DNA of 31,641 nt from a virus. The stretch is taken from IMG/VR virus record IMGVR_UViG_3300047393_000007, positions 1 through 31,641 of that record. The stretch is one strand, 5' to 3'. The notes below the pieces were generated by a model. That model was given only the letters and a program-made list of their open reading frames with translations, was not told the DNA's origin and ran no database searches. The position numbers and the translations under genes are program-made. Below, piece after piece: positions 2 to 18,123 of this stretch (positions are counted from its first letter, which is position 1; the number at the start of each line of letters is the position of its first letter).

Positions 2-1420
2 TTTAAAGGCAGAGGTATATCTGAACAAACACTTATAGATTTAAAAATAAGTGAAGGTTCCGAATTTATGCCACAAACAGGGAAAAACGAGAATGTAATA
101 AAGTTCAATTATTACATGGGAGATCAACTGATAAATATAAAATATAGAGATGGCAGAAAAAACTTTAAGTTATTTAAAGGTGCTGAAAAAGTATTTTACA
201 ATATAAACAGTGTGATTGGATATGAATACTGCGTTATAGTTGAAGGCGAAATGGATGTTTTAGCATTACACGAAGCTGGAGTTACAAACGTAATATCTGT
301 TCCAAATGGTGCTACTTTAAACACGAACAATCTAGACTACTTAGATAGTTGTATAGATTACTTTGACGACAAAGATAAAATTATATTAGCAGTTGATTCT
401 GACGCTGCTGGTCAAGCATTACAGTCAGAGTTAATTCGTAGGTTAGGTTCAGAAGTTTGTTATTTAGCATCGTTTGAAGATTGTAAAGATGCTAATGAAT
501 ACTTGTTAAAGTATGGTAAAGAAAAGTTATCACAGCGTATATCGCAAGCAAGACCTGTTCCTTTAGAAAATGTAAAAACATTTAAAGACATAGAAGATGA
601 TGTTACAGATTTTGTTAAAAACGGTTTTAAACCTGGATTCCAAGTTGGACTCGATAATTTTGACAGTATTTTTTCCACTTATACTGGTCAATTTATTACT
701 GTTACTGGTATTCCTAGTTCTGGTAAGTCCGACTTTGTAGATCAAATGATAGTTGGTTACAATGCTAAATATGGTTGGAAAACAGCTTTTGCTTCACCAG
801 AGAATCAACCTACTTATTTACATGCTCATAAACTAATGCGTAAAACCTGGGGTGATATGCCTACGCCTGAAGAGATACATGGTGATAAATGGAATCAAAT
901 AGCAGGTCACGTAAATGACAGTTATTATTTTATAGACATGGAACGATATACTTTAGAATCAGTGCTTAGAAAAGGTGCTGAATTGGTTAAACGAAAAGGT
1001 ATTAAGTGTCTAGTTATAGATCCATTTAACAAGGTTAGAGCAACAGATGCTTCAGGAGATGTAAATGTATATACTTTAGAATATCTACAACAAATAGAGG
1101 TGTTTGCTAAAAAGTATGACGTACTTGTTATCGTTGTTGCTCACCCAACTAAAATGTATAAAGATAGAGAAGGTAAAATAGAAGAACCTACTATGTATAA
1201 TATTAAAGGTGGTGGTGAATGGTACGATGCGTCTTATCACGGGTTATTAGTTCACAGAAACTATGAGGACAAAACCGTAAAAGTAAAAGTACTTAAAGTT
1301 AAGTTTCAAAATCTAGGTGAAAACGGAGCTGAAGCACATTTTAGATGGGAACCAAAATCAGGTTGTTTTTTACCTCATGTTCCTATTGATGCTTCTGGTG
1401 ATAAAATGCCTTGGGACTAA
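2..1420 (+). CDS. Primase-helicase, T7 gp4-like (5' end outside window)
   Basis: Replicative primase-helicase that unwinds DNA and primes lagging-strand synthesis. The frame is open from base 2 with no stop before the ATG at 68, and the 22 extra residues (including GRGIS) read as primase sequence, so the gene starts upstream. Numbering from the first visible residue, a Toprim domain has EGEMD at about 81-85 and the acidic DSD at 132-134. A DnaB/gp4-type RecA domain follows, with Walker A GIPSSGKS at 236-243, Walker B VIDPF at 338-342 and the histidine motif VVAHP near 378-382. The N-terminal zinc-binding domain would lie outside the window. The stop overlaps the next gene by one base (TAATG). 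It heads the + strand replication module. Assignment is firm; the true start is not visible. Confidence 0.95.
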   Translation, partial: FKGRGISEQTLIDLKISEGSEFMPQTGKNENVIKFNYYMGDQLINIKYRDGRKNFKLFKGAEKVFYNINSVIGYEYCVIVEGEMDVLALHEAGVTNVISVPNGATLNTNNLDYLDSCIDYFDDKDKIILAVDSDAAGQALQSELIRRLGSEVCYLASFEDCKDANEYLLKYGKEKLSQRISQARPVPLENVKTFKDIEDDVTDFVKNGFKPGFQVGLDNFDSIFSTYTGQFITVTGIPSSGKSDFVDQMIVGYNAKYGWKTAFASPENQPTYLHAHKLMRKTWGDMPTPEEIHGDKWNQIAGHVNDSYYFIDMERYTLESVLRKGAELVKRKGIKCLVIDPFNKVRATDASGDVNVYTLEYLQQIEVFAKKYDVLVIVVAHPTKMYKDREGKIEEPTMYNIKGGGEWYDASYHGLLVHRNYEDKTVKVKVLKVKFQNLGENGAEAHFRWEPKSGCFLPHVPIDASGDKMPWD

Positions 1421-1554
1421 TGGATACTAAAGAAAAATGTAGCATGTGCAAATGGTGGCCAGCAACTACAAAATGTGGCAAATGCGAGTCTTGTTACGGT
1501 ATATTACAACATTGGATAAAAAATAATATATTTAAACGTAAAATAGACAAATAA
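1420..1554 (+). CDS. 44-aa cysteine-rich zinc-ribbon-like microprotein
   Basis: A 44-codon frame starting at the ATG that overlaps the primase-helicase stop by one base and ending immediately before the next ATG, so it fills the gap exactly. The protein has five cysteines, spaced as CSMC, then CGKC and CESC sharing the middle cysteine region, followed by a basic C-terminus. Such paired CxxC knuckles are typical of small zinc-binding folds that contact nucleic acid or protein, but no family is recognised. Perfect fit into the operon and the cysteine spacing make it a likely gene; its role is unknown. It could act with the helicase or nucleotide enzymes next to it, which is inference from position only. 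Confidence 0.7.
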   Translation: MDTKEKCSMCKWWPATTKCGKCESCYGILQHWIKNNIFKRKIDK

Positions 1555-1803
1555 ATGGCTATTAAAAAAGTACAAATAGACATGGGTGATTATATGTATT
1601 CAACTAAAGAGTTTGAAGCATATAGATGGTGTACTGAAAATGGAATATATATAAGTCCAGTAGCAAAGTCTACCTTAGAATGGTTTATATCGATAGAAAT
1701 GAATAAAAAAATCCACATAAGTCCAGATGCTTATAAAAAAGTGGATGTGTGGAAACAGTTGTTTAAATTTTATATGTACTATTATGACAAATATAAAAAG
1801 TAG
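1555..1803 (+). CDS. Hypothetical protein, 82 aa
   Basis: An 82-aa protein of unknown function. It begins directly after the stop of the Cys-rich microprotein and its last 20 bases overlap the start of the thymidylate-synthase-like gene. Tyr, Lys and Trp are abundant and the C-terminus (residues 66-82) is a Tyr/Lys-rich amphipathic stretch. No signal peptide, membrane segment or catalytic motif is visible. The head-to-tail overlaps on both sides support it as a real member of the operon. Confidence 0.65.
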   Translation: MAIKKVQIDMGDYMYSTKEFEAYRWCTENGIYISPVAKSTLEWFISIEMNKKIHISPDAYKKVDVWKQLFKFYMYYYDKYKK

Positions 1804-2422
1804 TTTTAAAAATGCTAATGAAGCATACACGTATTTATTAGATAAAATTATACTCGAAGGAGTTGATTTTGATGATACAAAAGCTTTGTTTAATGTAGGT
1901 TTCTATATAGAAAATCCAACAGATAATTCGATAAGAGATCTAAGTAGAAAATGGAATCCAGTTTATGCTATGCGAGAATGGATGTGGTACTTGTCTGGTG
2001 ATCCTAGCGCTGTTGAAATATCTAAACATGCTCCAATATGGAAAAACATGATGGATGAAAACGGTTATGTTAGATCAAACTATGGTTGGCAATGGAAACG
2101 TAATGACCAAATAGGCAAAGTAATAGATTTGTTAAAATCAAATCCTAACACTAGAAAAGCAACTATATCTATATACGATGGAAAAGAAATAGATACGTAT
2201 TCTAACGACACGCCTTGTACATACGCTGTTCAGTTTACAATATTAGACGGTAAATTAAATATGGCTGTTCTAATGCGTTCTAATGATCTCTGGTATGGTT
2301 TCTGTAACGATCAATTCTGTTTTTCAAACTTACAAGCAGACATTGCTCATATATTACAAGTAGAAATTGGTACTTATTATCATTTTGCTCATAATTTACA
2401 TTTATATAACGATAAACTATAA
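1784..2422 (+). CDS. Thymidylate-synthase-family enzyme, probably dCMP (hydroxy)methylase-like
   Basis: 212-aa member of the thymidylate synthase/dCMP hydroxymethylase family, which adds a one-carbon unit to C5 of a pyrimidine nucleotide using methylene-tetrahydrofolate. ATG 1784 is preferred over the in-frame ATG 1727 because the extra 19 residues do not resemble the family and would extend the overlap. Against E. coli ThyA, from the catalytic cysteine on there are no gaps: C145 (=C146) in TPCT, R165 (=166), D168 (=169), H206 (=207) and Y208 (=209). E65, W86 and Y100 match E58, W80 and Y94. Position 177, Asn in thymidylate synthases, is Asp here (D176), the residue that makes T4 gp42 read dCMP. 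His147 is Thr. The protein stops about 50 residues before the usual C-terminus. Either dCMP hydroxymethylase or dCMP methylase is possible. Confidence 0.85.
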   Translation: MTNIKSSFKNANEAYTYLLDKIILEGVDFDDTKALFNVGFYIENPTDNSIRDLSRKWNPVYAMREWMWYLSGDPSAVEISKHAPIWKNMMDENGYVRSNYGWQWKRNDQIGKVIDLLKSNPNTRKATISIYDGKEIDTYSNDTPCTYAVQFTILDGKLNMAVLMRSNDLWYGFCNDQFCFSNLQADIAHILQVEIGTYYHFAHNLHLYNDKL

Positions 2423-2427
2423 CTAGA

Positions 2428-2607
2428 ATGGAAGAGAAAAAAACAATAGAATTTTGGAAAGATGGTGAATACGCCGCGAAAGGCGGTTATTTCGTTAGAA
2501 GCGAAATAAAGACTTTTTTAAACAAATTAATTGACAATGGTTTAGAACCAGTTGGATTAATTGTAGATTTAGAGTCTTTTAACTTAGAAGTAATTGTAAA
2601 AGAATAA
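2428..2607 (+). CDS. Hypothetical protein, 59 aa
   Basis: A 59-codon frame between the thymidylate-synthase-like gene (5-base gap) and the MazG fusion gene (2-base gap). The protein is acidic with a predicted strand-helix-strand pattern: KTIEFWKDG, a helix around SEIKTFLNKLIDNG, then a hydrophobic strand GLIVDL. No family is recognised. It was checked as a frameshifted C-terminus of the preceding enzyme and does not resemble one. Its tight fit in the operon is the main support. Confidence 0.65.
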   Translation: MEEKKTIEFWKDGEYAAKGGYFVRSEIKTFLNKLIDNGLEPVGLIVDLESFNLEVIVKE

Positions 2608-2609
2608 AA

Positions 2610-3449
2610 ATGACATATTATTTATATCACATCTTTGGTAAAAAGATAGGTGTCACGTGTAATCTTAAAGATAGATTAACAACACGACAAGGTTATGCCT
2701 GTGGAGAATATGAAGTTCTAGATTCTAGCGACGATATAGATTATATATCTGCAAAAGAATTAGAACTTCAACTTATCTACGGTTATAAAATAGACAGACA
2801 AACTTATAAACAACTAATAACTAAACAATCAAATAAATCTATGGTATTAAATGTAACTGAACAAACAACAACTTTTCCGTATCCTTTAAATAAACTTAAA
2901 GGTAATCTAATGGACAATCTGGGATTAGAAATAGATACCACATTTGGTAAATATGTGTTAAATCCAAAACTTGTAGATTGGATTATTAAAAATGCTAAAA
3001 CATCTATGTACAATCCTTCTAGGTGTTATGTCTACAACAAAGCTATGGATGAATTCTTTAAACAAGAAGAACCTGGAATTAGTCCTCCCGCAAAACAAGT
3101 TCCAAATGTATATGACTTAATTAGAGAATGGGCAGATACTAGAGGAATTTACAGAAACGGAGATACTAAAACTCAATTCGCTAAGTTAATGGAAGAATCT
3201 GGCGAACTTGCTAGAGCTATTCTTAAAAATGATAGAGTAGAATTTATTGATGCTATTGGTGATATGATTGTGGTGTTAACTAATTTAGCTGCTTTAGAAG
3301 GTTTAAAAGTTGAAGACTGTGTAGTATCAGCTTACGACGTTATTAAGTCTAGACAAGGCAAAATGGTTAATGGTACGTTTGTCAAAGAACAACCACAGAC
3401 TCAAAACGGATTAGAAGTTTCAAAATCTAAAATGTTACAAACGCTATAA
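2610..3449 (+). CDS. GIY-YIG-like domain fused to MazG-like NTP pyrophosphohydrolase
   Basis: A 279-aa two-domain protein. Residues 1-70 resemble the GIY-YIG/T5orf172 nuclease fold: an aromatic first strand (YYLYHI), KIGVTCNLKDRL resembling the conserved lysine-isoleucine-glycine and arginine region, and a glutamate-rich helix (AKELELQ). Residues 80-150 form an unknown linker domain rich in aromatics. Residues 167-255 are an all-alpha MazG-type nucleotide pyrophosphohydrolase with the metal-binding pattern EESGE (195-199) and EFIDAIGD (211-218), which hydrolyses NTPs or dNTPs to monophosphates. Two bases separate it from the upstream gene and one from the downstream gene. Between a dCMP-type enzyme and a ribonucleotide reductase, clearing a competing dNTP such as dCTP is plausible but inferred. 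The MazG call is firm; the nuclease-like call is moderate. Confidence 0.8.
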   Translation: MTYYLYHIFGKKIGVTCNLKDRLTTRQGYACGEYEVLDSSDDIDYISAKELELQLIYGYKIDRQTYKQLITKQSNKSMVLNVTEQTTTFPYPLNKLKGNLMDNLGLEIDTTFGKYVLNPKLVDWIIKNAKTSMYNPSRCYVYNKAMDEFFKQEEPGISPPAKQVPNVYDLIREWADTRGIYRNGDTKTQFAKLMEESGELARAILKNDRVEFIDAIGDMIVVLTNLAALEGLKVEDCVVSAYDVIKSRQGKMVNGTFVKEQPQTQNGLEVSKSKMLQTL

Positions 3450-3450
3450 T

Positions 3451-3660
3451 ATGAAAGAATCGTTTGAAGATTATCTAAGTAGATTAAAAGATAGAAGAGA
3501 CGAAGATAGTTATAAATATACAGATGAAGATTTTAAATTATATAAAGACTATATTCAGGATTGTTGTGAAACAGGATTAAGTGTTTACAAATGTTTAGAA
3601 TTTATGTGGTTTAAAACAAAAGAAGCTGAAAATAATTTTAAAGAATTAAATTTAATATGA
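3451..3660 (+). CDS. Hypothetical protein, 69 aa
   Basis: A 69-aa highly charged, helix-rich protein (Glu, Asp, Lys and Arg dominate) with a cysteine pair, DCCETG, near the middle. It starts one base after the fusion gene and its stop overlaps the next start as ATGA. No domain is recognised. The compact spacing supports translation with its neighbours. Confidence 0.65.
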   Translation: MKESFEDYLSRLKDRRDEDSYKYTDEDFKLYKDYIQDCCETGLSVYKCLEFMWFKTKEAENNFKELNLI

Positions 3661-4058
3661 AAGAAAAATTAATTGAGTTTAGAGATCCAATTGTAGAACG
3701 AGTTGTTGAAAAGTTTGTATCTAGATCAGACGTAGGGTTTGCTAAATACGGAACTACATTACACGAAGAGCGTACCATAAAAATGAAAGGTCTTTTTAAA
3801 TATCTAAATGATGTTCAAGAGGAATTAATGGATGCGGTGCTATACATACAAGCGTGTAAAGAGGAAGTTCAGGATCTAACAGAAGAAATGTTGCTTGAAA
3901 AATTCAGAGAAGTTGATATGATTGGTTTTGATGAAATGCAAGTAAATGACTGTGATGGTGGACATCATTATTCTTTTACTATAGATGAAGACGACGAAAG
4001 AATGAAAGTAATTGGTCAAAACGGTAATGACGGATTACATTATGAAGAGAATAAGTAG
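3657..4058 (+). CDS. MazG-like nucleotide pyrophosphohydrolase candidate
   Basis: A 133-aa protein. Its N-terminal half looks like the small phage pyrophosphohydrolases of the MazG superfamily: a helix with RSDVGFAKYGTTL (23-35), a spacer, then QEELMDAVLYIQ (54-65), where EELMD fits the ExxED-type metal-binding helix. The C-terminal third is acidic and probably disordered (TIDEDDE), with HH at 103-104. Family members hydrolyse dNTPs such as dATP/dGTP or dCTP; the substrate cannot be told here. It overlaps both neighbours (ATGA upstream, 17 bases with the endonuclease gene). This would be the second MazG-type protein in a row. Only one half of the usual acidic motif is clear, so confidence is moderate. 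Confidence 0.6.
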   Translation: MKEKLIEFRDPIVERVVEKFVSRSDVGFAKYGTTLHEERTIKMKGLFKYLNDVQEELMDAVLYIQACKEEVQDLTEEMLLEKFREVDMIGFDEMQVNDCDGGHHYSFTIDEDDERMKVIGQNGNDGLHYEENK

Positions 4059-4497
4059 AAAAAAAGGACCAGTAGTATCAAAGAAGGTAACATATAACGG
4101 TGTTACCTTTGCTTCTGGTTTAGAAAAACACATGTATAAAGCGTTGTTAGATGCGGGTATAGACTTTGACTATGAAGGAGAGGTATTTGAATTATTACCA
4201 TCATTTAATTTTACTAACAGATGTTTTGAAAGACAATCAAACGGCAAAGGTGAATTCATAGATAGAGGTTGTAAAAAAGTGTTAAATTTAAAATATACTC
4301 CTGATTTCGTTGGAGAAGACTTTATTATAGAAACAAAAGGAAGAGCTAATGATTCATTTCCTTTACGTTGGAAAATGTTTAAAGAATGGATGATAAAGAA
4401 TGACGACAATAGAACATTGTATAAACCGCAAAATCAAGCAGAATGTATGAAAACAATAGAATTAATTTTAAAACAAAGACAAGATGACTTCAAGTAG
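4042..4497 (+). CDS. Endonuclease I, T7 gp3-like Holliday junction resolvase
   Basis: A 151-aa PD-(D/E)XK nuclease of the phage endonuclease I type, which resolves branched DNA and helps degrade host DNA in T7. The full catalytic set is visible: E28 in FASGLEK, D88 in YTPDF, and E97 and K99 in ETKG. The spacing matches T7 gp3 (SGLE, TPDF, ETKG). The start at 4042 (MKRISRKK) is chosen because the in-frame ATG at 4012 adds ten residues with no family similarity and lengthens the overlap with the preceding gene. A Cys-containing insertion (60-78) lies between strands. It ends overlapping the next small gene by 14 bases. It probably processes replication or recombination intermediates before packaging. 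Confidence 0.88.
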   Translation: MKRISRKKGPVVSKKVTYNGVTFASGLEKHMYKALLDAGIDFDYEGEVFELLPSFNFTNRCFERQSNGKGEFIDRGCKKVLNLKYTPDFVGEDFIIETKGRANDSFPLRWKMFKEWMIKNDDNRTLYKPQNQAECMKTIELILKQRQDDFK

Positions 4498-4651
4498 TAA
4501 TTTACCAGAGAAAAAAGAGACTAGTTGGGAACTAGCGGTTGGATTATACCCAGGAATACTATTTGGCCTTAGAACATATCAAGAACCAACATTCGATACA
4601 CACGTGTTGTATTTACCATTTATTAACATTTTATTAACAATAGACAAATAG
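4484..4651 (+). CDS. Small protein, 55 aa, unknown
   Basis: A 55-codon frame overlapping the endonuclease stop by 14 bases and ending one base before the ribonucleotide reductase start. After a polar N-terminus, the body is moderately hydrophobic: a glycine/proline turn (GLYPGILFGLRTY) and a C-terminal LYLPFINILLTI stretch that could form a strand pair or a short membrane-associated segment. There is no signal peptide. Function is unknown. Exact packing between two certain genes makes it credible. Confidence 0.68.
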   Translation: MTSSSNLPEKKETSWELAVGLYPGILFGLRTYQEPTFDTHVLYLPFINILLTIDK

Positions 4652-4652
4652 T

Positions 4653-6521
4653 ATGAGTTTAACATTAGATAAACAAATCTTAAGTGACATTACCGTATAC
4701 ACAAAATATGCAAAATACGTTCCAAGTAAAGAAAGAAGAGAAACTTGGGAAGAGTTAGTTACAAGGAACATGGAAATGCATATTGCTAAATTTCCACATT
4801 TAAAAGAAGCAATTGAACAAATTTACAGAAATTTCGTCTTTAATAAAAAGGTACTTCCGTCGATGCGAAGTTTGCAGTTTGGAGGTAAAGCAATTGAACT
4901 TAATAATGCTCGTATTTATAATTGTGCTTTCTTACCTATTGATAGTATTCATAGTTTTAGTGAGACAATGTTTCTATTACTTGGAGGTACTGGCGTTGGA
5001 TATTCAGTACAGAATCATCAAATTGAAAAATTACCTGAGATTAGGAAACCAAACTACGATCGTAAGAAAAGATACGTTGTTCAAGACAGTATTATAGGTT
5101 GGGCAGATGCTGTTAAGGTTTTATTTAAGTCTTATACTGGAGGATTAACATCTCATATAGAATTTGACTTATCAGACATTAGACAAAAAGGTGCTTTGTT
5201 AATAACTGCTGGAGGAAAAGCTCCTGGTCCAGAACCATTAAGATTAGCGTTGGTTAAGATAGAAGCAATACTTAGAACAAAAGCAGATAGAACAAAGTTA
5301 ACAGATATTGAATGCCACGATATTCAATGTCATATTGCTGACGCTGTACTAGCAGGTGGAATTAGAAGAGCAGCAATGATTAGTTTATTTGATTTAGATT
5401 CTACAGCTATGCTGAATTGTAAGGCAGGTAACTGGTGGGAAGATAATCCGCAAAGGGGTAGGTCAAATAACTCAGTTGTACTATTAAGACATAAGATTGA
5501 TAAGAAAACATTTGACAAAGTCTGGGAAAGAATTGAAGCTTCTGGGTCAGGAGAACCTGGCATATATCTTACAAATGATAAAGATTGGGGAACTAATCCT
5601 TGCTGCGAAATTGCTTTACGACCTTATCAATTCTGCAACTTAACTGAGATTAATATGTCTGACATTAAAGACCAAGATGATTTTAATGCTAGATCATCAG
5701 CAGCATCATTTCTAGGTACATTACAGGCATCGTATTCTGATTTCCATTATCTACGTGACATTTGGAAAAAGAACACGGAGAAGGATGCCTTATTAGGTGT
5801 TTCAATGACTGGCATCGCCTCTAAATCTAACTTAGAATTAAATTATGAAGAAGCAGCTAACATTGTTAAAACAACAAATAAAGAAATCGCAAATCTACTT
5901 GGAATTAATGTGGCAGCTAGAACTACTGCAGTCAAACCCGCAGGGACAACTTCTTTGGTTCTTGGTACTTCTTCTGGGATTCACGCTTGGCACAATGACT
6001 ATTATATTCGTAGGATGAGATTAGGTAAGAACGAGGCGATCTATTCTTATCTTGCTATTAACCATCCAGAATTGTTAGAAGACGAATACTTTAATCCAAC
6101 AGTACAATCTGTTATTTCTGTACCTCAGAAAGCTCCTAATGGTGCTATTACAAGACATGAGTCTACATTAGACTTATTGGAAAGAGTAAAACTTATTTCA
6201 AGAGACTGGGTAAAACAAGGTCATACAAAAGGAAATAATACTCACAACGTTTCTTGTACTGTTTCTGTTAGAGATGATGAATGGAAAATTATTGGCGAAT
6301 GGATGTGGGCAAATAAAGATTATTACAATGGATTATCTGTATTACCTTATCACGGTGGAACATATAAACAAACTCCGTTTGAAGACTGTACTAAAGAAGT
6401 TTACGAGCAAATGATGTCTACTTTAAAAGATGTAGATTTATCTAAAGTAATAGAGGTTCAAGATAATACTAATTTTGGAGAATCAGTTGCTTGTGGACCT
6501 GCTGGATGTGAAATAACTTAA
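4653..6521 (+). CDS. nrdJ: Class II (adenosylcobalamin-dependent) ribonucleoside triphosphate reductase
   Basis: A 622-aa monomeric ribonucleotide reductase of the Lactobacillus leichmannii RTPR type, converting ribonucleotides to deoxyribonucleotides with a B12-derived radical. C91 (in NCAFLPID) corresponds to C119, and C328 (in FCNLTE) to C419; together they form the reducible pair. N315, C317 and E319 in NPCCE correspond to N406, C408 (thiyl radical) and E410, and the 11-residue distance from C317 to C328 is exactly that of RTPR. The tail CGPAGCE has C614 and C619, spaced like C731/C736. At 622 aa it is shorter than the 739-aa prototype, consistent with compact phage forms. The usual NPCGE glycine is Cys here. 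No small subunit is expected. It supplies dNTPs for the phage independently of oxygen but depends on cobalamin. Confidence 0.95.
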   Translation: MSLTLDKQILSDITVYTKYAKYVPSKERRETWEELVTRNMEMHIAKFPHLKEAIEQIYRNFVFNKKVLPSMRSLQFGGKAIELNNARIYNCAFLPIDSIHSFSETMFLLLGGTGVGYSVQNHQIEKLPEIRKPNYDRKKRYVVQDSIIGWADAVKVLFKSYTGGLTSHIEFDLSDIRQKGALLITAGGKAPGPEPLRLALVKIEAILRTKADRTKLTDIECHDIQCHIADAVLAGGIRRAAMISLFDLDSTAMLNCKAGNWWEDNPQRGRSNNSVVLLRHKIDKKTFDKVWERIEASGSGEPGIYLTNDKDWGTNPCCEIALRPYQFCNLTEINMSDIKDQDDFNARSSAASFLGTLQASYSDFHYLRDIWKKNTEKDALLGVSMTGIASKSNLELNYEEAANIVKTTNKEIANLLGINVAARTTAVKPAGTTSLVLGTSSGIHAWHNDYYIRRMRLGKNEAIYSYLAINHPELLEDEYFNPTVQSVISVPQKAPNGAITRHESTLDLLERVKLISRDWVKQGHTKGNNTHNVSCTVSVRDDEWKIIGEWMWANKDYYNGLSVLPYHGGTYKQTPFEDCTKEVYEQMMSTLKDVDLSKVIEVQDNTNFGESVACGPAGCEIT

Positions 6522-6530
6522 AACAATAGT

Positions 6531-7100
6531 ATGATTTATATAAAAGATAATTTCCTGGATGATGGATTAATAAAAGCAATGGACAAAGATGACAAGTGTT
6601 TTGAAAAGGTTGATTGTCCAGGAAAATCTTTTTGGATAAAGAGACCAACTCAGAAATTGTTAGACGAGATTCAAAAAACCATTGAATGGATTGAAGATAG
6701 AAAGATAATTCCTATTTTAGGTTTTATGAGAGAAGCTAAGGAAGGTCAAGATACTGACTGGAGAATACACAACGATTCAATAATAGAAGGTCAACAACCA
6801 GATAGAGCAGCTGTGTTGTATGTTTCAGAAGATAATTACGATGGAATAAATGGAACTGCTTTTTGGGAACATAAAGTGCACGGAGACACATTCGACAATC
6901 TAGATGTAGAAGAATATGATAGACTAATAACCTACGATGCTAATAATACAGATTTGTGGACTTTAAAAACAGTTGTAGGTCATAAACAAAACAGATTAGT
7001 TTCTTATCCATGTAATTATTTTCATAGTAAATATCCAAATGAATTCATAGAAAGTAGAAAAGTATTCGTAATATTTTATAAAACAGAAAATGGAAAATGA
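6531..7100 (+). CDS. 2-oxoglutarate/Fe(II) oxygenase-like protein
   Basis: A 189-aa protein resembling the small phage 2OG-Fe(II) dioxygenases (double-stranded beta-helix). Candidate iron ligands are H80 and D82 in the HxD motif IHND, and a distal histidine H165 in YFHSKYP; R176 in ESRKVFVIF is placed to bind 2-oxoglutarate. The strand RAAVLYVSED between them fits the fold. Its substrate is unknown: it could hydroxylate a protein, a small molecule or a modified base. It lies nine bases after the ribonucleotide reductase and overlaps the next small gene by 11 bases. Iron-site residues are read from motif order, so the fold is likely and the substrate open. Confidence 0.7.
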   Translation: MIYIKDNFLDDGLIKAMDKDDKCFEKVDCPGKSFWIKRPTQKLLDEIQKTIEWIEDRKIIPILGFMREAKEGQDTDWRIHNDSIIEGQQPDRAAVLYVSEDNYDGINGTAFWEHKVHGDTFDNLDVEEYDRLITYDANNTDLWTLKTVVGHKQNRLVSYPCNYFHSKYPNEFIESRKVFVIFYKTENGK

Positions 7101-16973: not shown

Positions 16974-17714
16974 TTATTTACCAAGACTAGCGTTAGAAGC
17001 TAAACCACCTGCTATGCTTCCAACGGCACTTATCCCAGCACCAATAGCCGCACTTTGAGCTTGTTTCGCAGCTGCTTGATTAGCCGAAGCCTGCGCTTCT
17101 TGACCAGCTAGTCTATTTAGTTTAGAAATATCTCTAGATTCTTGTTCTCCATATTTAAACTTAATAGCATCTGTTTCAGCGGTTTGTAATCTTTGAGCTT
17201 CTCCAAATTTGACCCCTTGAAGTCTTTGAGCTTCTTCTAATTTTGCTTTTTGCATATCAGCTTGTCCTTGAGCTTTTAACTTCTCATTATTTGCTTCTTG
17301 CTGTTCTATACTAGCGGAAACACCTTTTTTACTTTGCAACGCGGCTTGGGCTAAAGCAGTAGCTCCACCAGCGCCAGCTCCTGTTGCTCTTAATGTATCT
17401 AGAGTATTAGCTAATGATAAATCTGCTTCTTCTGCCTGCATTTTAGCAGCTTGAGTAGCTACTCCTAAGTTAGCAAAAGGATTACTTATCATTCCACTAA
17501 GATCTGTAGCTATTCCACTAAGATCAGTTACATTAGCATACGGATTTGGTATTGCTTGTCTATTTTTCTCTAAAGCAGTTATCTCACCTGCTCTTCTATC
17601 TGCTTCGTTTTTGTATCCTTTAGCTGCTTGTTTTGATTGATTTGCTTGGACCAAAGATCCACCAACTGCTAAAGCCGCCGCTCCTCCTGCTACGCATGCT
17701 GTTATTACTGCCAT
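16974..17714 (-). CDS. Internal virion protein, T7 gp14-like (246 aa)
   Basis: A 246-aa Ala/Gln/Gly-rich protein. A hydrophobic N-terminal segment (CVAGGAAALAVGGSLV, about 7-22) and a C-terminal glycine-zipper segment (AAIGAGISAVGSIAGGLA, about 221-238) flank a long Ala/Glu/Gln coiled coil with repeated EAQRLQ units near residues 160-180. This architecture, membrane-seeking ends around a helical rod, is typical of podovirus gp14-type ejection proteins that insert in the outer envelope. It abuts the acetyltransferase gene with a one-base gap. The family call is by architecture and position. Confidence 0.7.
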   Translation of the reverse strand: MAVITACVAGGAAALAVGGSLVQANQSKQAAKGYKNEADRRAGEITALEKNRQAIPNPYANVTDLSGIATDLSGMISNPFANLGVATQAAKMQAEEADLSLANTLDTLRATGAGAGGATALAQAALQSKKGVSASIEQQEANNEKLKAQGQADMQKAKLEEAQRLQGVKFGEAQRLQTAETDAIKFKYGEQESRDISKLNRLAGQEAQASANQAAAKQAQSAAIGAGISAVGSIAGGLASNASLGK

Positions 17715-17715
17715 A

Positions 17716-18123
17716 TTAAGTTATTTTTTTTGATATTTCATACGAAGGAGTTTCATCCACTGTATATCCTAATTTTTTATGAGTTTCAATTAAACTATTA
17801 CTTCTTGTTATACTAATTATAATAGTGTAACCTTGTTGTTTAGCTACGTCTTCTAGAGTGTTTATAAGCATCTCTAACGCATCTTTTCTATCTGATTCCT
17901 TATATGTTGGACTAGATATAATCCAGTCTAACCATGCAACCTTAGAATTAGATAAATACAGAAAACCAGCCGCAACTGGTTCTTCTCCTTTACATATCAT
18001 TATTCCTCCAAGTCCGTTTAAAGGTAGTACCTCTTTACTTACTTCTGGCCATCTCCACCATTTCCACCATGAAGACATTGTTTCCCAATCTGACTCGTTT
18101 AATGATCTAGCTTTTAATTCCAT
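17716..18123 (-). CDS. GNAT-family N-acetyltransferase-like protein (135 aa)
   Basis: A 135-aa protein with a GNAT-like fold: a beta strand EPVAAGFLYLS (about 48-58), the strand VAWLDWIISSP (62-72), then a helix of about 18 residues and the late strand TIIISITRSNS followed by THKKLGY (113-119), which matches the common GNAT ending. The pyrophosphate-binding loop lacks the usual Q/RxxGxG/A and has YKESDRKDA instead, so acetyl-CoA binding is not certain. The N-terminal WWKWWRWP cluster is unusual. It lies between a tail gene and the ejection-protein genes, so it may be made late and could modify a virion or host protein; the target is unknown. Confidence 0.72.
   Translation of the reverse strand: MELKARSLNESDWETMSSWWKWWRWPEVSKEVLPLNGLGGIMICKGEEPVAAGFLYLSNSKVAWLDWIISSPTYKESDRKDALEMLINTLEDVAKQQGYTIIISITRSNSLIETHKKLGYTVDETPSYEISKKIT

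Follow-up and report, generated by a model that had tools for sequence, protein, structure and literature searches.

A predicted T4 gp42-type dCMP hydroxymethylase in an uncultured phage clade and its exchange with other Asp-177 enzymes in one operon slot

The locus and its genes

The window, as we call the whole 31,641-nt stretch analyzed here, comprises positions 1 to 31,641 of the virus contig IMGVR_UViG_3300047393_000007. Its portal and capsid proteins group the phage with Flavobacteriia podoviruses, among them Cellulophaga phi38:1 and the Flavobacterium elemo phages, and place it nearer still to the metagenomic genome MW202828. An open reading frame that runs from an ATG at 1784 to a stop codon at 2420-2422 encodes a 212-residue protein of the thymidylate synthase (TS) fold, referred to below as the window protein, which matches the Pfam family Thymidylat_synt (E 1.1e-26) and phrog_160 (E 1.6e-41), a PHROGs family named thymidylate synthase.

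The gene occupies a slot, X, in an operon with the order primase-helicase, 82-residue ORF, X and MazG (Table 1), and its start is overlapped by 20 bases by the end of the 82-residue ORF. A MazG domain lies downstream on the same strand in all 59 loci with enough sequence, at a median distance of 489 bases. The MazG-type part of the window also matches PF01503 and has at best a weak match in the PDB (1vmg, E 2e-4); this neighbor is a candidate supplier of dCMP from dCTP. Co-occurrence of TS domains with phosphoribosyl-ATP pyrophosphohydrolase domains (PF01503) has been found on modified contigs in the MetaGPA study (PMC8670742). The N-terminal part of the window's MazG-type protein, GIY-YIG-like by eye, is present in 46 of the 59 loci.

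The class II ribonucleotide reductase further downstream is swapped for a class I-type-looking pair in some hydroxymethylase-bearing relatives, G013 among them, and at least a small-subunit-like class I-type gene is seen in the relative G050. In the same gene block of the window, a possible 2-oxoglutarate/iron oxygenase, recognized by eye from an HxD...H...R pattern and with a weak match to DUF6445, might have a modified base or something else as its target.

Neither dNMP kinases of the DNMK (PF21448) and thymidylate-kinase (phrog_761) types nor a dCMP deaminase, a ThyX, a TAGT glycosyltransferase or a beta-glucosyltransferase resembling that of nattely turned up in searches of the window and 26 relatives. 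With the nattely beta-glucosyltransferase as query, the one match, in the relative G003, was weak and short (E 0.003), and we read it as chance.

Table 1. Features of the window and of related phage genomes, with the strand and basis of each assignment
Feature	Genome or locus	Position	Strand	Basis
Primase-helicase (Toprim + DnaB C) bounding the slot on its upstream side	Window	68..1420	+	Pfam/PHROGs
82-aa ORF, conserved just upstream of slot	Window	1555..1803	+	ORF list, locus comparison
Predicted dCMP hydroxymethylase (T4 gp42 type), 212 aa	Window	1784..2422	+	Pfam/PHROGs, homologue alignment, tree, AlphaFold model, structure matches
Glu65 codon; catalytic residue for methylene-THF opening (T4 E60, Ec E58)	Window	1976..1978	+	Alignment; role per PMC6400193
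Ser98-Asn99-Tyr100 codons (T4 S94-N95-Y96), part of hydroxymethylation signature	Window	2075..2083	+	Alignment
Asp142 codon (T4 D145), C-3 position, predicted to activate substrate water; Leu in TS	Window	2207..2209	+	Alignment
Cys145 (nucleophile) and Thr146 codons	Window	2216..2221	+	Alignment
Asp176 codon (Ec N177, T4 D179), base-reading residue	Window	2309..2311	+	Alignment
MazG-type nucleotide pyrophosphohydrolase domain (C-terminal), GIY-YIG-like N-terminal part by eye	Window	2610..3449	+	Pfam/PHROGs
Second small protein, NTP-pyrophosphatase-like by eye; phrog_11184, no assigned function	Window	3657..4058	+	Pfam/PHROGs
Class II ribonucleotide reductase	Window	4653..6521	+	Pfam/PHROGs
Possible 2-oxoglutarate/iron oxygenase	Window	6531-7100	+	By eye; weak DUF6445 match
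TS-type protein, family A	G050 (L402-L404)	about 43359-44231	-	Asp-177
TS-type protein, family B	G051 (L405)	4261-5052	+	Asp-177
Class I-type-looking ribonucleotide reductase pair	G013 (L107)	2045-5198	+	
Second TS-like paralogue	BF503P2 (L002)	17127-17933	+	
TS-type protein	Prevotella phage Lak-B7 (L112)	301-1302		
Hydroxymethylase-type protein	Maribacter phage Molly_1 (L088)	887-1966		

Active site and class of enzyme

When the window protein is aligned with E. coli ThyA and T4 gp42, its Cys145 falls opposite the catalytic C146 of the E. coli enzyme, Thr146 opposite H147 and Asp176 opposite N177 (T4 D179). The initial annotation had named the catalytic cysteine, a threonine in place of His147 and an aspartate in place of Asn177, and on all three, as on its residue numbering, the alignments agree with it. 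The residue at position 147 differs between the classes: TS have His, dUMP hydroxymethylases have Asn and dCMP enzymes have Thr. At the 18 catalytic, substrate and cofactor positions that we compared, the window protein is identical to T4 gp42 throughout, and the residues of folate catalysis are kept (E65, D168, G172 and Y208; T4 E60, D171, G173 and Y218).

Three further features had escaped the initial annotation: an aspartate, D142, three residues before the catalytic cysteine (C-3), the S98-N-Y100 element ahead of it, and the absence of the TS C-terminal tail, only 4 residues following the HxY motif as compared with 55 in E. coli ThyA. For the T4 enzyme, an Asp three before the catalytic Cys together with Ser-x-Tyr has been proposed as the mark of a hydroxymethylase (PMC6400193), and the published signature (Asp/Glu at C-3, Ser/Thr-x-Tyr) is present here as D142, C145 and S98-N-Y100. 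Positions 147 and 177 are also the top residues tied to modified cytosine by MetaGPA (PMC8670742), and the pair found in the window protein, Thr and Asp, is the one so tied.

An ordinary thymidylate synthase converting dUMP to dTMP might be expected from the family name in Pfam and PHROGs and from the fact that this is the sole TS-family gene found in these phages, in which no ThyX was detected. Thymidylate synthases differ, however, from the window protein and T4 gp42 at 177, 147, C-3 and the Ser position: the window protein has D176 rather than Asn, T146 rather than His and D142 rather than Leu, and it lacks the closing tail. Moreover, N177D/N229D mutants, as cited in PMC8670742, shift TS toward dCMP, and the family tree described below sets TS apart at 100/98. 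We consider a thymidylate synthase extremely unlikely. Nor did we find a clade of Asp-bearing homologues that are known thymidylate synthases, which the initial annotation had named as part of the evidence that would count against a dCMP enzyme. A dUMP hydroxymethylase is likewise not indicated, SPO1 gp29 and two dUMP-type phage enzymes having Asn at both 177 and 147.

Judged from its sequence, the ORF very probably encodes a dCMP hydroxymethylase that depends on folate and resembles T4 gp42 in type, an already known kind of enzyme, with 5-hydroxymethyl-dCMP as the most likely product. The initial annotation had left the choice between 5-hydroxymethyl- and 5-methyl-dCMP open; the presence of D142 and S98/Y100 and the absence of the TS tail favor the former over the latter.

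Conservation, phylogeny and predicted structure

The Asp, Thr and Cys at positions 177, 147 and the catalytic site are invariant among 58 homologues. All 80 fetched relatives (60-93% identity), together with the window, keep the motifs RSNDxWxGFCxD, SxYG, DxPCT and EWxWY, and dN/dS between the window gene and its five nearest relatives is 0.05-0.19. Given this invariance, the retention of the motifs and the low dN/dS, the Asp/Thr/Cys pattern is not a product of chance. In the family tree, TS split off at 100/98 and the dUMP-type (Asn) enzymes form a separate clade at 98/98. The window clade joins T4 gp42 at 85/85, a modest support, and the T4 branch is long.

An AlphaFold model built from 58 sequences (mean pLDDT 93.3, pTM 0.90) has as its best PDB match the CMP hydroxymethylase MilA (5jnh; Z 26.3, rmsd 1.4 over 208 residues), followed by 9iqc (Z 26.1), T4 dCMP hydroxymethylase (Z 22.6) and TS (21.8 and below). 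The structure prediction called for in the initial annotation confirms the TS-type fold but does not discriminate among substrates, because Foldseek and VIA-align give high scores to MilA, the RB69 type, T4 and TS alike.

As MilA is the nearest solved structure, a ribonucleotide-acting CMP hydroxymethylase of its type deserves mention. The ribose-selecting residues of MilA are Lys133 and Ala176 (PMC5175136), and the window protein has Arg124 and Ser166 in their place, the deoxyribose form of the pair; in common with MilA it has Asp at 177.

The high score of 9iqc, together with a shared fold, Asp-177 and Thr-147, might equally suggest a flavin-dependent 5-hydroxy-dCMP synthase like RB69 ORF048c, which has about 99% identity to 9iqc and 9iqu, both FAD/dCMP structures, and whose type has been described as a 5-hydroxy-dCMP synthase (PMC13390438). 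In the RB69 protein, however, Phe replaces the catalytic Glu, and the T4 residues Asp171, Gly173, Tyr218, D145 and S94 are replaced by Asn, Val, Phe, Glu and Thr, respectively. The window protein keeps all of these T4-type residues, including the folate-site E65, D168 and Y208 whose loss is characteristic of the RB69 type, and its BLAST identity over the alignments is 25% to RB69 as against 32% to T4 gp42. An RB69-type activity is highly unlikely on this evidence.

Exchange of Asp-177 enzymes in one slot

In two portal relatives, G050 and G051, full-length TS-type proteins, which define families A and B, respectively, replace the hydroxymethylase in the same slot. In each of them position 177 is Asp, C-3 is Leu and the tail is complete. 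Searches with these two proteins recovered 30 type A and 32 type B relatives, and all 62 lie beside the same neighbors and carry Asp-177. The 50 more distant homologues of A that stand outside the slot operon all have Asn at this position; one distant Asn-177 homologue (L516) with a weak MazG match nearby was judged not to represent the slot. Across the slot proteins that we examined, 142 homologues and that of the window, Asp-177 occurs without exception.

A further tree, with inner supports of 89/83 and 93/93, places A next to Asn-bearing enzymes as their sister and B in another part, and from these separate positions Asp-177 probably arose separately in the two families. The three slot types are interleaved on the portal tree, with at least 9 changes, although recombination of the slot against the portal gene would give the same interleaved picture. 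The N177D and N229D mutants of TS that PMC8670742 cites lead us, by analogy, to predict a dCMP methylase activity for both A and B.

The occurrence of two TS-type Asp-177 families of methylase-like appearance in the same slot, along with Asp-177 on a TS fold, raises the question of whether the window enzyme itself is a dCMP methylase forming 5-methyl-dCMP, as in phage Xp12 or the Asn229Asp L. casei TS. The window protein, however, has the putative water-activating Asp142 and Ser98/Tyr100 and is without the TS tail, whereas the TS-type slot proteins carry Leu at C-3 and the full tail, and we regard a methylase at this locus as very improbable. For the hydroxymethylase, a preference for dCMP over dUMP, as put forward in the initial annotation, is upheld by the active-site identity with T4 dCMP hydroxymethylase, by the tree, by the operon context of more distant homologues (see below) and by the refilling of the slot only by other Asp-177 enzymes.

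Taken together, these observations suggest a reading to which we give even chances: that in this clade the slot must hold a dCMP-acting enzyme; that its occupant has repeatedly been exchanged between hydroxymethylase and families A and B, which each gained Asp-177 and probably make 5-methyl-dCMP; and that the genomes alternate between hydroxymethyl- and methyl-cytosine and are shielded from Type II restriction without a T4-type kinase or glucosyltransferase. We found no earlier description of an exchange of Asp-177 enzymes in one slot. A literature search on modified cytosine in Bacteroidetes phages brought up nothing relevant. Repeated exchange with a constant Asp-177 would constitute a natural experiment on which residue matters.

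Restriction-site avoidance

We compared observed with expected counts of C/G-containing 4-bp palindromes in about 31.6 kb per genome and took a site with a ratio below 0.25 as strongly avoided. None of 47 Asp-177 phages (25 with the hydroxymethylase, 11 with A and 11 with B) shows strong avoidance. Of the 22 relatives that yielded no TS-family gene, 19 do show it, often with GATC, CATG or GGCC absent; some of these 22 contigs may be fragments, so that a TS-family gene could lie outside the contig. One further genome (G052, 37 kb) has no TS match and is too short to class. In three relatives with no TS-family gene (G030, G031 and G033; loci L413-L418), avoidance is extreme: GATC, CATG, CGCG and GGCC stand at 0 and CTAG at 0 or 1.

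The Asp-177 phages form one clade on the portal tree (100/100), which therefore offers only one independent contrast, and the Fisher p of 3e-14 is not usable as such. There is a precedent in coliphages, of which those with a hydroxymethylase avoid 2.4% of sites and those without 55.8% (Rusinov and co-workers, PMC6286503). The loss of avoidance in the clade lends moderate support to modified DNA, as a single evolutionary contrast among phages whose hosts are not identified. It also provides indirect backing for the modified cytosine in phage DNA that the initial annotation had raised as a possibility.

A pool enzyme whose product never enters DNA would fit with the failure to find an hmdCMP kinase of either family tested, and the loss of restriction-site avoidance argues against it by pointing to changed DNA. 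Together with the MilA-type activity considered above, this alternative is very unlikely. Incorporation of modified cytosine into the phage DNA is likely in our estimation, though less sure than the product of the enzyme.

Proposed mechanism and implications

In the mechanism that we propose, Cys145 would attack C6 of dCMP, whose deoxyribose would be selected by Ser166 and Arg124, and Asp176 would read and protonate cytosine N3. Glu65 would help to activate 5,10-methylene-tetrahydrofolate, the carbon of which would pass to C5. Once tetrahydrofolate (THF) has left, the exocyclic methylene would take up a water molecule held by Asp142 and Ser98/Tyr100; the products would be 5-hydroxymethyl-dCMP and THF. 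The MazG-type neighbor may convert dCTP to dCMP, both feeding the hydroxymethylase and clearing plain dCTP. The hmdCMP would then be phosphorylated, perhaps by a host kinase, and the hydroxymethylated nucleotide built into DNA by the host polymerase, which would protect the genome against many restriction enzymes of Type II. T4 requires its own kinase for hmdCMP. Our searches of the window and its 26 relatives turned up none of the kinases or glycosyltransferases tested, and both the route from hmdCMP into DNA and any sugar on the base are putative.

If this scheme is correct, a large uncultured phage clade would be added to the few viruses for which replacement of genomic cytosine has been predicted, and would achieve it with a minimal gene set in which we found no DNMK- or thymidylate-kinase-type kinase, glucosyltransferase of the kinds tested or dCMP deaminase. 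Such a gene set makes the step from hmdCMP to hmdCTP in these hosts directly testable. By marking its cytosines the phage would hide them from the restriction enzymes of bacteria. Lost avoidance of restriction sites connects the genes present with a predicted DNA chemistry, one that is readable from sequence alone.

Relation to known systems

T4 gp42 (PDB 1b5d, 6a9a) shares with the window protein its fold, the 18 compared active-site positions and the lack of a TS-type C-terminal tail. Identity between the two is 32% in a 168-column BLAST alignment, the window protein is 24 residues shorter after HxY and, unlike the T4 enzyme, it has no recognized phage kinase, dCMP deaminase or glucosyltransferase partner that we could find. 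Bacteroides phage BF503P2 gp42 (OP172671) is 46-47% identical over nearly its full length and has the same motifs and short tail; its assigned function comes from its annotation as 'Deoxycytidylate 5-hydroxymethyltransferase'. BF503P2 differs in having a dUTPase and a second, degenerate TS-like gene nearby, a paralogue that has lost the catalytic Glu and Gly173 and kept the Cys, Thr and Asp-177.

The TS-like proteins of the Enterococcus/Lactobacillus phages nattely, phi9183 and ATCCB are 37-40% identical to the window protein and share Asp-177 and Thr-147, but have a longer C-terminal part, with 59-75 residues after HxY. Beta-glucosyltransferase genes adjoin the homologues of nattely and ATCCB, a thymidylate-kinase-like gene and a dUTPase adjoin that of phi9183, and a kinase-like gene is found in nattely too. 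The TS proteins of the MetaGPA modified contigs (PMC8670742) have in common with the window the residues at 147 and 177 and the PF01503 partner.

Two additional phage proteins combine these features differently. The TS-type protein of Prevotella phage Lak-B7 has Leu at C-3, His at C+1 and Asp at 177 (LPYDLLS), residues by which it may be a dCMP methylase in a Lak megaphage. The hydroxymethylase-type protein of Maribacter phage Molly_1 has a mixed signature in which Thr-147 is paired with Asn-177, and its gene adjoins an annotated beta-glucosyltransferase.
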